A stretch of DNA of 64,000 bases from Sphingobacteriaceae bacterium (GTDB taxonomy: Bacteria > Bacteroidota > Bacteroidia > B-17B0 > Aurantibacillaceae). Under the pieces are notes generated by a model. That model worked only from the letters and a program-made list of their open reading frames with translations, made no database searches and was not told where the DNA came from. Both the position numbers and the translations under genes were made by a program. Position 1 is the stretch's first letter. Every line of letters starts with the position of its first letter. The stretch covers positions 2,976,001-3,040,000 of the forward strand of contig NVQB01000001.1 of NCBI GenBank assembly GCA_002319075.1, written 5' to 3'. Positions 19,405 through 26,496 of the stretch are shown piece after piece.

Positions 19405-20712
19405 ATGATCGCTTCTATTATTTTTTGCATTCTATTTATTGGCTCTGGCGCTTTTTTTTACATCAACGCGAAAAAAATCCGGAGAAATATTTTTATTGGA
19501 AAAGATTTTCCTATCACCGACAACAAAGGCGAGCGCTTAAAAACAATGGTGCTGGTGGCGTTGGGACAGAGTAAAATGGTGACGCGTCCCATAAGTGCGA
19601 TCCTTCATATTTTTGTTTATGTGGGATTTGTGCTTATCAATATCGAAGTTATGGAAATGTTTGTAGACGGTATTACCAACTCGCACCGTGCCTTCAGTTT
19701 TTTGGGTAGTTTTTATAATTTTTTGATCGGCTTTTTTGAAATTCTTGCGCTTCTTGTGTTTATTGGAGTGGTTGTTTTTTGGTTGAGAAGAAACGTGGTA
19801 AAAGTAAAACGGTTTTTGAATTCTGAATTAAACGGCTTTCCAAAGTTAGATGCCAATGTTATTTTAATAACGGAAATGGTTTTAATGACCGCCCTGATGT
19901 TGATGAATGCAGCCGATCAGAATTTACAGTTACGCGGTAACGAACACTATCATGCGGCCGGAAGTTTTCCGGTGAGTCATTTTTTTGCTCCTATGTTAAG
20001 CGGATTATCTGATGGCTCTTTAATCATGATTGAACGCACTACATGGTGGTTGCATATCATCGGTATCTTCGCGTTCTTAAATTACCTTCCTTATTCAAAA
20101 CACCTTCACATTCTTTTAGCTTTTCCGAATACCTATTTTTCTAACCTAAAACCAAAAGGACAATTTAATACTTTAGACGCTGTAACGGATGTGGTAGCTC
20201 CAAACTTTGATCCTGCATACGTTGCCAAAACCGATCCTAATAATCCGGTGCGCTTTGGGGTGAAAGATGTTCAGGATCTCGGTTGGAAAAATTTAATGGA
20301 TGCTTATTCCTGCACTGAGTGTGGAAGATGCACTTCTGCCTGTCCGCAAAATATGACCGGCAAAAAATTATCTCCTCGTAAGATCATGATGGATACACGA
20401 GATCGTATGGAAGAGGTTGGTCGTAACATGGATGCGAATAAAGGCGTGTTTGTTGATGATGGTAAATCTTTATTAGGCGATTACACAACAGCAGAAGAAG
20501 TGTGGGCTTGTAATACGTGTAATGCTTGTGTTCAGGAATGTCCTATAAACATTGATCCCCTGGCTATTATTTTAGAGATGCGTCGTTATCTGGTGATGGA
20601 ACAAAGTCAAAGTCCTTCTGAATTAAATGGGATGTTTACTAACATTGAAAATAATGGCGCTCCGTGGCAGTTTTCTCCGGCAGATAGAGCGAATTGGACG
20701 AACGAGGCATAA
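19405..20712 (+). CDS. Membrane-bound 4Fe-4S oxidoreductase subunit (HdrC/NarI-like)
   Basis: A 435-residue protein. Residues 1-230 contain about five membrane helices with His residues (e.g. HIFVYVGFVLINIE, TTWWLHIIGIFAFLNYLPYSKHLH) that could bind heme b. Residues about 300-400 carry two 4Fe-4S motifs, CTECGRCTSACP and CNTCNACVQECP. Together with the cysteine-rich protein at 21221 it resembles the HdrE/HdrC plus HdrB arrangement in which electrons pass between quinone and a soluble Fe-S partner. The physiological donor is unknown. Between the two halves sits the GxxExxY element, which separates what is likely one operon. Confidence 0.87.
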   Translation: MIASIIFCILFIGSGAFFYINAKKIRRNIFIGKDFPITDNKGERLKTMVLVALGQSKMVTRPISAILHIFVYVGFVLINIEVMEMFVDGITNSHRAFSFLGSFYNFLIGFFEILALLVFIGVVVFWLRRNVVKVKRFLNSELNGFPKLDANVILITEMVLMTALMLMNAADQNLQLRGNEHYHAAGSFPVSHFFAPMLSGLSDGSLIMIERTTWWLHIIGIFAFLNYLPYSKHLHILLAFPNTYFSNLKPKGQFNTLDAVTDVVAPNFDPAYVAKTDPNNPVRFGVKDVQDLGWKNLMDAYSCTECGRCTSACPQNMTGKKLSPRKIMMDTRDRMEEVGRNMDANKGVFVDDGKSLLGDYTTAEEVWACNTCNACVQECPINIDPLAIILEMRRYLVMEQSQSPSELNGMFTNIENNGAPWQFSPADRANWTNEA

Positions 20713-20713
20713 A

Positions 20714-20749
20714 AACCACTAAGACACTTAGAACACGAGAAGCACTAAG
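20714..20749 (+). repeat. Left terminal inverted repeat of the GxxExxY element
   Basis: Built from staggered CACTAAG/CACTTAG words about 9 nt apart. It differs from the reverse complement of the right repeat at only a few positions and one indel. Confidence 0.8.
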
Positions 20750-21163
20750 ATGATCATTACTCAGAAATATATTAATGAGATCTCATATGAAATTGTTGGG
20801 GGAGCGATTGAGGCGCATAAACATGTTGGACCTGGACTGTTAGAGTCGGTATATCATTCATGTTTGGCCGAAGAATTGGAAAGCAGCGGTTTGATAGTTG
20901 AATCGCAGGTAAAAGTTCCTGTGAGTTATAAAGGAAAAGATATTGGGGGTCTATTAAGGTTAGACATGTTGGTAAATAATTTGGTTGTGGTAGAGTTAAA
21001 AGCAGTGGATGTAATGATATCTCTTTACAAAGCCCAGCTGCTGTCGTATTTGAAATTGGCTGGAATGCCTAAAGGATTGCTTATTAATTTTCATTGTGAA
21101 AATATAACAAAACACTTAGTTCCTCTGGTCACGGAAGATTTTGCCTTATTACCAAAAGATTAA
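20750..21163 (+). CDS. GxxExxY-family protein with PD-(D/E)XK nuclease-fold motifs
   Basis: A 137-residue protein. The signature GxxExxY is present as GLLESVY around residues 29-35, within HVGPGLLESVYHSCLAEELE. A nuclease-type active-site pattern follows: LRLDMLVNNLVVVELKAVD (about 66-84), that is Asp, then Glu-x-Lys as in the PD-(D/E)XK superfamily, where the family is classed (PDDEXK_3). The C-terminal YKAQLLSYLKLAGMPKGLLINF is also typical. The role of this family is not established. It sits inside inverted repeats, and the start lies right at the inner edge of the left repeat, so the repeat provides the 5' context. All expected catalytic residues are intact. Confidence 0.9.
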   Translation: MIITQKYINEISYEIVGGAIEAHKHVGPGLLESVYHSCLAEELESSGLIVESQVKVPVSYKGKDIGGLLRLDMLVNNLVVVELKAVDVMISLYKAQLLSYLKLAGMPKGLLINFHCENITKHLVPLVTEDFALLPKD

Positions 21164-21169
21164 ATATAA

Positions 21170-21206
21170 CTTAGTGCTGCTCAGTGCCCTTAGTGCCTTA
21201 GTGGTT
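21170..21206 (-). repeat. Right terminal inverted repeat of the GxxExxY element
   Basis: Begins 6 nt after the GxxExxY stop codon. Its reverse complement begins AACCACTAAGGCACTAAG, matching the left repeat along nearly its whole length. Confidence 0.8.
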
Positions 21207-21220
21207 AAAATATAGAGAAT

Positions 21221-22009
21221 ATGAGTTTAATAAAAGTTTATACAATGGCAGAGATGATTGCCAAAGGCGAGACACCAGAAATTCTTTTTTGGGTAGGTTG
21301 TAGCGGAAGTTTCGATGACCGTGCTAAAAAAATAACCAAAGCCATTGTTAAGATTTTAAATCATGTAAATATTAAGTTTGCCATTCTCGGTTCTGAAGAG
21401 GGCTGTACCGGCGACCCGGCAAAGCGTGCAGGAAATGAATTTTTATTCCAGATGCAGGCAATGCAAAATATTTCTGTGTTAAACGGTTACGAGGTAAAAA
21501 AAATCGTAACGGGTTGTCCGCATTGTTTTAATACCATTAAAAATGAATACCCGGCTTTAGGTGGAAATTATGAAGTTATTCATCATACACAACTAGTGCA
21601 GGGACTTATAGACTCTGGTAAATTAACTGTACAGGGCGGAGAATACAAAGGCAAAAAAATTGTTTTCCACGATCCCTGTTATTTGGGAAGAGGAAATAAC
21701 ATTTACGAAGCACCACGCGAAGTAATTCAAAAGCTGGATGTGGAATTAATGGAAATGAAACGCAGCCGCGCTAAAGGTCTTTGCTGTGGTGCAGGCGGCG
21801 CACAAATGTTTAAAGAGGCTGAAAAAGGTACCAAAGAAGTAAACAACGAACGCGCCGAGGAAGCACTGGCATTAAATCCGGATGTTATCGCCGTAGGTTG
21901 TCCGTTTTGCAATACCATGATGACGGATGGTGTGAAACATTTCAATAAAGAAGATAAAACCAAAGTACTCGATGTGGCTGAGCTCATCGCAAATGCCAAC
22001 GATCTTTAA
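21221..22009 (+). CDS. CCG-domain Fe-S oxidoreductase subunit (HdrB-like)
   Basis: A 262-residue soluble protein with two cysteine-rich (CCG) domains. The first holds FWVGCSGSFDDR (Cys28 region), GCTGDPAKRAGNE and VTGCPHCFNTIKNEYP. The second holds VFHDPCYLGRGN, GLCCGAGGAQMF and VGCPFCNTMM. These domains bind unusual Fe-S clusters in heterodisulfide-reductase subunit B and in glycolate/lactate oxidase subunits. Expected to be the catalytic partner of the membrane 4Fe-4S protein at 19405. It starts 14 nt after the right repeat of the GxxExxY element and is followed after 3 nt by the TPR lipoprotein gene. Confidence 0.9.
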   Translation: MSLIKVYTMAEMIAKGETPEILFWVGCSGSFDDRAKKITKAIVKILNHVNIKFAILGSEEGCTGDPAKRAGNEFLFQMQAMQNISVLNGYEVKKIVTGCPHCFNTIKNEYPALGGNYEVIHHTQLVQGLIDSGKLTVQGGEYKGKKIVFHDPCYLGRGNNIYEAPREVIQKLDVELMEMKRSRAKGLCCGAGGAQMFKEAEKGTKEVNNERAEEALALNPDVIAVGCPFCNTMMTDGVKHFNKEDKTKVLDVAELIANANDL

Positions 22010-26126: not shown

Positions 26127-26213
26127 TACCACTCAGAACACTCAGAACACTTAGATACACTAAGATTTATTTTTTCTCAGTGCCCCTTCGTGACCTAAGT
26201 GTCTTAGTGGTTA
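26127..26213. repeat. MITE-like inverted repeat, copy A
   Basis: Left arm 26128-26164, spacer of 11 nt (ATTTATTTTTT), right arm 26176-26211. The arms match the ends of the GxxExxY element (ACCACT...ACTAAG outer and inner words), but no gene lies between them. It would fold into one long hairpin. Confidence 0.85.
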
Positions 26214-26263: not shown

Positions 26264-26348
26264 TACCACTGAGGCACTTAGAACACTTAGTTACACTAAG
26301 ATTTATTTTTTCTCAGTGCCCCTTCGTGCCCTTAGTGTCTTAGTGTTT
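26264..26348. repeat. MITE-like inverted repeat, copy B
   Basis: Left arm 26265-26300, same 11-nt spacer, right arm from 26312. The outer right end differs (GTGTTTAG instead of GTGGTTA), so this copy is slightly decayed. The 50-nt stretch before it (26214-26263) resembles the one before copy C, so a larger ~140-bp unit was duplicated in tandem. Confidence 0.85.
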
Positions 26349-26410: not shown

Positions 26411-26496
26411 TACCACTGAGGCACTTAGAACACTTAGATACACTAAGGCTTATTTTTTCTCAGTGACCCTTCGTGCCCTTAGTGTCTTAGTGGTTA
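26411..26496. repeat. MITE-like inverted repeat, copy C
   Basis: Left arm 26412-26447, spacer GCTTATTTTTT, right arm 26459-26496. Its outer end TTA (26494-26496) is, on the minus strand, the TAA stop of queG. Confidence 0.85.

Follow-up and report, generated by a model that had tools for sequence, protein, structure and literature searches.

Analysis of a 64,000-nucleotide stretch of DNA from a Sphingobacteriaceae bacterium (hereafter the window) identified a small gene for a GxxExxY protein that is enclosed by two inverted arms and inserted between two genes of an Fe-S operon. We consider it probable that this locus is a member of a widespread gene-plus-repeat system, in which a nuclease acts on its own type of arm and spreads DNA that is bounded by such arms. 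We infer the binding of the arm units, the cutting, and the role of the protein as the cause of the spread.

A GxxExxY gene enclosed by inverted arms in an Fe-S operon

The gene (20750..21163, plus strand) encodes a protein of 137 amino acids, which is assigned to TIGR04256 / PF13366 as a predicted PD-(D/E)XK nuclease by profile matches, a structure model and fold comparison. It is preceded by a left arm (20714..20749, plus strand) with the outer end AACC and four inward-pointing units, which read in order CACTAAG, CACTTAG, CACGAG and CACTAAG and are separated by spacers of 1-3 nt, and it is followed by a right arm (21170..21206, minus strand) that is an inverted copy of the left one. The left arm ends at 20749 and the TAA stop codon of the gene ends at 21163, so that both placements given in an earlier note on this DNA, namely an ATG directly after the left repeat and a right repeat 6 nt past the stop, were correct. 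The alignment of arm against arm spans 37 columns with 31 identities, five mismatches and one gap, and its score is 42; in 2000 dinucleotide shuffles the left flank scored 31 at most. The inverted match is real, but to describe it as matching nearly base for base, as had been done, is a bit strong for 84% identity.

The upstream gene of the host operon (19405..20712, plus strand) encodes a membrane protein with a 4Fe-4S domain, is syntenic in relatives, and has a stop codon that abuts the arm-bounded element. The downstream gene (21221..22009, plus strand) is heterodisulfide-reductase-B/TfrB-like and, as we take it, of the CCG-domain type. The operon order (Fe-S gene, CCG-type gene, TPR gene, patatin-like gene, 628-aa ORF) is common to five relatives that were read further out, one contig end within the Fe-S gene being allowed for. 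That the two flanking genes would be adjacent in an ordinary operon was borne out: of the 34 species of the genus in which the spacer was readable, 14 have one of 8-102 bp with no insert. The observation of a gene packed in inverted arms inside an operon is confirmed.

Predicted nuclease fold and selection on the protein

The window protein matched TIGR04256 in a profile search with an E-value of 3.5e-37 and 127.3 bits, above the curated cut-off of 35, and also matched PF13366 (PDDEXK_3). The PD-(D/E)XK-like Asp and Glu-x-Lys are intact as previously stated (D72 and E82-x-K84), and E32 of the GxxExxY motif is present as well. Across an alignment of 70 sequences E82 and K84 are invariant, E32 and D72 are conserved in at least 90%, and Y35, Q96 and Y100 are nearly invariant too; Q96-x-x-x-Y100 is similar to the QxxxY motif that RecB-type nucleases share. 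The predicted structure of the protein has a mean pLDDT of 92.4. Its first Foldseek match was 4ic1 (SSO0001), which we take to be a Cas4, at an E-value of 1.5e-3, with no match at 0.001 or less. The same entry was the best chain in VIA-align (Z 9.5 over 104 residues), followed by restriction-endonuclease-like chains with Z values of 5.6-7.4 (including Cas4, MGME1, AddAB and Hjc), RecB-type and Holliday-junction nucleases among them. A search for a solved relative by sequence gave no convincing match (best E-value 0.091). From the model, the protein is predicted to be a PD-(D/E)XK nuclease whose closest structural match is the presumed Cas4.

The GxxExxY protein is under purifying selection. 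Values of dN and dS were 0.09 and 0.45 for the pair L022/L027 and 0.06 and 0.90 for L077/L122, and dN/dS was about 0.06-0.21 in pairs with unsaturated synonymous change. Broken gene copies with stops were found in several genomes. Phage cargo was rejected as an origin, with matches in 0 of 50,697 phage records, and so was plasmid cargo, with matches in 8 of 72,556 plasmid records, all of them below 60% identity; scans of viral contigs gave no relative in one case and one weak locus in another.

Inverted arms around other GxxExxY genes

Arms are not peculiar to the window gene. Flanks of 320 bp were readable for 211 distinct GxxExxY genes pooled from all sets; 134 of these have inverted arms with a score of at least 30 and 77 fall below it, compared with 14 of 381 neighbouring-gene controls (5/169 in the genus and 9/212 in the wider sets). 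The check proposed in the earlier note, whether other GxxExxY genes lack arms, thus came out in favour of a link. Within the genus 61 of 96 distinct genes reach a score of at least 30 and 31 reach at least 40, a level attained by none of the 169 neighbouring genes; at the score of 30 the wider sets contributed 17 of 29 genes from a phylum sample and 52 of 77 loci from named genomes. The proposed search for the same CACTAAG-rich arms elsewhere succeeded in part: arms do flank other members, but they are mostly made of sister 7-mers and not of CACTAAG. PF13366 is present in 34 of the 40 genus genomes, and the family occurs in 151 of 296 sampled Bacteroidota genomes, about half. Where record titles name other phyla, four of eight scored loci pass the score of 30 (Treponema L177, Planctomycetota L183, Pyrinomonadaceae L205 and Methylobacter L218) and four do not (L182 with a score of 29, L223, L230 and L245); since most of these are metagenome bins, misbinning is possible. 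In the window's own genome only the window gene out of four GxxExxY genes reaches the score of 30, and arms of the other three (L002, L003, L004) are visible by eye only.

The arms are tandem arrays of 7-mers with the rough form CRCNNAG or CRCNNAT and spacers of 1-5 nt, usually with AACC at the outer end. The unit is CACTAAG in the window and CACATAG, CGCAGAT or CACAGAG elsewhere, and among the CRCNNAG units of the 134 passing genes 576 are directed inward and 108 outward. The type of arm goes with the phylogeny of the protein. A tree was built of 196 proteins, of which 45 without an arm label were excluded from the count; arm type changed 11 times for the 151 labelled genes compared with 51-59 times in 200 shuffles, the unit patterns and arm labels having been defined once the arms were known; within the genus there were nine changes for 74 genes compared with 36-49 when shuffled. 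The 95 genus loci fall into 40 sites, a number possibly inflated by missing flanks, and the 18 CACATAG-type loci into nine. One site is occupied by CRCNRAG-type genes in five species, but in a further species by a CACATAG-type gene, which indicates a joint exchange of gene and arms at that site. The six CACTAAG-type genes all lie at the Fe-S operon site, so that this subtype alone shows loss and gain at a site and not transfer between sites.

Occupied and empty sites in the Fe-S operon

Sixty relatives were searched with the downstream protein, and the spacer was readable in 34 of 40 genus genomes (the survey omits G005, G013 and G032, which gave no match, and G060, G061 and G062). According to assignment by eye and family searches, the site holds a GxxExxY gene with CACTAAG arms in six of the 34 (G000, G001, G009, G010, G026, G034), a four-helix-bundle PF05635 gene in another six (G002, G007, G008, G011, G018, G033), gene-less arms in two (G003, G017) and other genes in six; the remaining 14 have the empty spacer described above. 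Empty sites in G019, G021 and G006 have near kin with occupied ones (G026, G034). On a tree of the two host proteins, in which 12 of 34 inner branches are weak, GxxExxY presence at the site changed at least five times. Empty and occupied site pairs in close relatives, which the earlier note had suggested looking for, were therefore found. Outside the genus neither a GxxExxY nor a four-helix-bundle gene occupied the site in any of 14 readable species. One of these 14, from another family (G054, locus L408), has ATATGAA-like units in an inverted array there, with no gene between them.

The PF05635 (23S_rRNA_IVP) genes in this spacer are likewise set in tandem-unit arms (L021, L026, L029, L040, L047, L048), five of GCAGTTGGCAG-type and one of GATTGATGATT-type. 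In several of these elements the arm gives the upstream gene a new TAG stop, and the old TAA is found at the right junction. In G018 (L048) a lone CACTAAG arm stands upstream of the four-helix-bundle gene, as if one element had replaced another; this genome has 28 CACTAAG matches and no gene labelled CACTAAG-type. Across the genus 13 of 35 scored PF05635 loci (L271-L299 and others) have inverted arms with a score of at least 30, made of other units that are often purine-rich. Arm-flanked PF05635 loci are a possible sister system.

The idea that the six other genes at the site are all selfish inserts was dropped, as a HAD-like gene (named by eye) is found there in three species outside the genus too and looks like an old operon member. 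Two species carry small gene pairs at the site (L034, L041) that by eye are RelE/ParE toxin-antitoxin-like. Such selfish-looking small genes in 2 of 34 species would fit an addiction module or toxin that holds its site, the arms being by-products. We rate this as very improbable for the GxxExxY locus, whose element contains no partner gene, since loss of the gene leaves empty sites and solo arms and the matching satellites described below would go unexplained.

Gene-less copies of the arms

Gene-less copies (satellites) were counted with three arm-type patterns in the 40 genus genomes, two arms being subtracted per gene. At least three copies of the CACTAAG repeat were present in 6/6 genomes with the matching gene versus 5/34 without it, of CACATAG in 15/16 versus 5/24, and of CACGAAT/CACTAAT in 8/9 versus 7/31; the reversed-pattern controls for the three arm types had 0, 2 and 0 matches in the tables printed. 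When gene types were compared with repeat types, each repeat associated best with its own gene type. CACATAG-type genes also associated with the other two repeats (p 0.002 or less), and these off-diagonal associations could be caused by shared ancestry. CACTAAG satellites in 3-28 copies occur without a matching gene in G007, G011, G060, G019 and G018. A phylogeny-corrected pair test pointed in the right direction for all three types, with too few pairs for significance. A generic arm pattern, which was drawn up after the arms had been seen and whose count includes the gene's own arms, was found in 93/151 Bacteroidota genomes with the family versus 5/145 without it, with 694 matches compared with 5 for the reversed pattern. 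At least three copies were present in 58/151 versus 1/145 genomes, the association held when stratified by taxonomic family (odds ratio 18.6, p 2e-7), and leaving out the large family f38 gave 93/145 versus 4/87.

The window's genome has 12 strict CACTAAG matches that are scattered, as would be expected if a common host repeat happened to flank the gene by chance, but the neighbouring-gene, reversed-pattern and label-shuffle controls all oppose this, and we regard it as refuted as the main account and next to negligible in probability. A more serious alternative is that of a tamed nuclease with a host role, for which the scattered units serve as binding sites in regulation, chromosome upkeep or defence; the gene would then lie between two units by happenstance, and the spread of the repeat would be old or otherwise caused. 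The strong purifying selection, the usual single gene copy per arm type per genome and the absence or near-absence from phages and plasmids agree with such a role. However, the scattered occurrence of the gene, with sites that are empty in very close species, the broken gene copies in several genomes and the arm-bounded packaging at 40 separate sites are element-like, which makes a purely tamed nuclease unlikely.

Within the window three gene-less CACTAAG hairpin elements stand in tandem about 5 kb downstream of the GxxExxY gene, none with a strand assigned. The first (26128..26211) and third (26412..26494) contain pattern matches (C1:3002190-3002211 and C1:3002473-3002494, respectively), and the second (26265..26347), with the outer right end GTGTT, was read by eye. 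Where G001 is syntenic with this part of the window (L420), no CACTAAG arms turned up beyond the two that flank the gene. Gene-less arm elements of the window's genome are sometimes tandemly duplicated together with their flanks into minisatellite-like arrays (L011, L013, L015).

A set of 20 gene-less CACATAG elements (86-174 bp) was chosen from G019 by an exact outer-arm pattern, so that the invariance of their outer units is uninformative. Most have an inner hairpin between the outer arms, the sequence of which varies yet remains self-complementary, with a stem of at least 8 bp in 15/20 elements versus 1.5% of shuffles. The inner hairpin in these satellites (L380-L399) often reads TTCGC..GCGAA and is bordered by ACATAG/CTATGT. 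The outer-arm spacers match within an element in 4/20 cases compared with 5.2 expected by chance and are thus not complementary beyond chance, which indicates that the units are kept and not a perfect stem. A perfect-stem reading of the outer arms, as RNA or cruciform, was ruled out because the spacers do not co-vary.

These structures bear on the possibility of an element that works at the level of RNA, as 23S rRNA intervening sequences do, in which the arms pair in the transcript and are processed out, rendering the operon insert harmless, and the protein is cargo. The insertion between genes of one operon, the inner hairpins and the four-helix-bundle genes of the 23S rRNA intervening sequence family at the same site in 6/34 species fit this picture, as does the reported excision of the Coxiella intervening sequence by RNase III (PMC4990558). 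It is contradicted by the lack of co-variation in the outer-arm spacers, by the conserved catalytic residues on a fold best known from DNA enzymes, and by the absence of Rfam matches at gathering score in the window and in 16 further loci. We consider it quite improbable.

The target-site duplications that the earlier note had proposed to look for were not found: in the 20 CACATAG elements the mean was 2.3 nt compared with 2.29 nt for shuffled pairs, with no excess, in a test that is weakened by AT-rich flanks. This speaks against the action of a classical cut-and-paste transposase and would still allow copying that is coupled to repair or replication.

Comparison with known systems

The mobile-unit reading of the earlier note, which had drawn on RAYT/REP pairs, is supported as an analogy: the architecture and the population pattern agree, in that the type of arm varies with the protein and gene-less copies accompany the gene, but the enzyme class does not. 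RAYT/TnpA-REP genes with REP sequences and REPINs (REPtrons), and also TIRYT/TIRtron systems, are described as a repeat-flanked enzyme gene with scattered gene-less inverted pairs in intergenic DNA, with a repeat flavour per enzyme lineage and the keeping of single gene copies (PMC3116915, PMC3733652, PMC8266576). The GxxExxY gene is likewise flanked by a repeat of which further copies are dispersed through the genome, and the repeat flavour is specific to the protein lineage. In contrast, the RAYT enzyme is an HUH tyrosine transposase of the IS200/IS605 kind, whereas the fold here is PD-(D/E)XK-like, and GTAG-tagged palindromes there stand against tandem CACTAAG-like 7-mers with unpaired spacers here.

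Cas4 and RecB-type nucleases appear to provide the nearest solved fold to the GxxExxY model. However, the GxxExxY protein is half the usual size, and its gene has no Cas1/Cas2 or polymerase beside it, its neighbours being Fe-S operon genes. Casposons, one of which has a Cas4-like domain, depend on Cas1 and show target-site duplications (PMC4046053). MITEs of Bacteroidota, such as BrickBuilt of Porphyromonas gingivalis, are intergenic, carry no gene and, small as they are, end in terminal inverted repeats (PMC4596501). The gene-less arm elements here share these features, but BrickBuilt-type ends resemble insertion sequences, whereas the ends here match the arms of a nuclease gene. Of the features of cut-and-paste transposons and MITEs, terminal inverted repeats were found here and target-site duplications were not (20 CACATAG elements). 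The 23S rRNA intervening sequences also place a small gene in an inverted-repeat insert, and genes of the IVP family share the Fe-S site, but the S23/IVP protein is unrelated and the insert here lies between protein genes and not in rRNA.

Proposed working and implications

We propose that a minimal Cas4/RecB-like PD-(D/E)XK nuclease would recognise arms that are inward arrays of its 7-nt unit. It would bind the units that belong to its arm type, both at its own gene (in cis) and at gene-less pairs (in trans), and would cut or process the DNA at the bound arms; repair or replication of the processed piece could then place arm-bounded DNA at new intergenic positions. None of the steps of movement was caught in our data. 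If protein lineage and unit sequence drift together, several pairs that do not cross-react might exist in one genome. The gene is kept by selection; a genome usually has a single copy of it for each arm type, surrounded by gene-less satellites, and the same is true of RAYT genes and REPINs. A broader version is put forward tentatively, at somewhat less than even odds: Bacteroidota and some other phyla would have a class of transposase-free elements, selfish or tamed, whose tandem 7-mer arms are recognised by a minimal Cas4-like nuclease that spreads the DNA between them, and a parallel four-helix-bundle IVP class would compete for the same insertion sites.

Gene-repeat systems as such are already known; what is new here is an unrelated enzyme that is nuclease-like instead of a transposase. 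Within open-licence PubMed Central we found neither an assigned role for the TIGR04256 / PF13366 family nor a link between the family and a repeat, including in the available part of PMC8934634, and an account elsewhere is possible. Tying GxxExxY proteins to a repeat family provides a defined substrate together with a specificity control in the form of a sister arm type, and it suggests where the intergenic repeats of CACAGAG/CGCAAAG type in Bacteroidota genomes with the family are likely to have come from. If the protein indeed moves the repeats, a Cas4-like nuclease alone would do the job that is otherwise done by transposases, and such movement driven by a nuclease alone would be categorically new.
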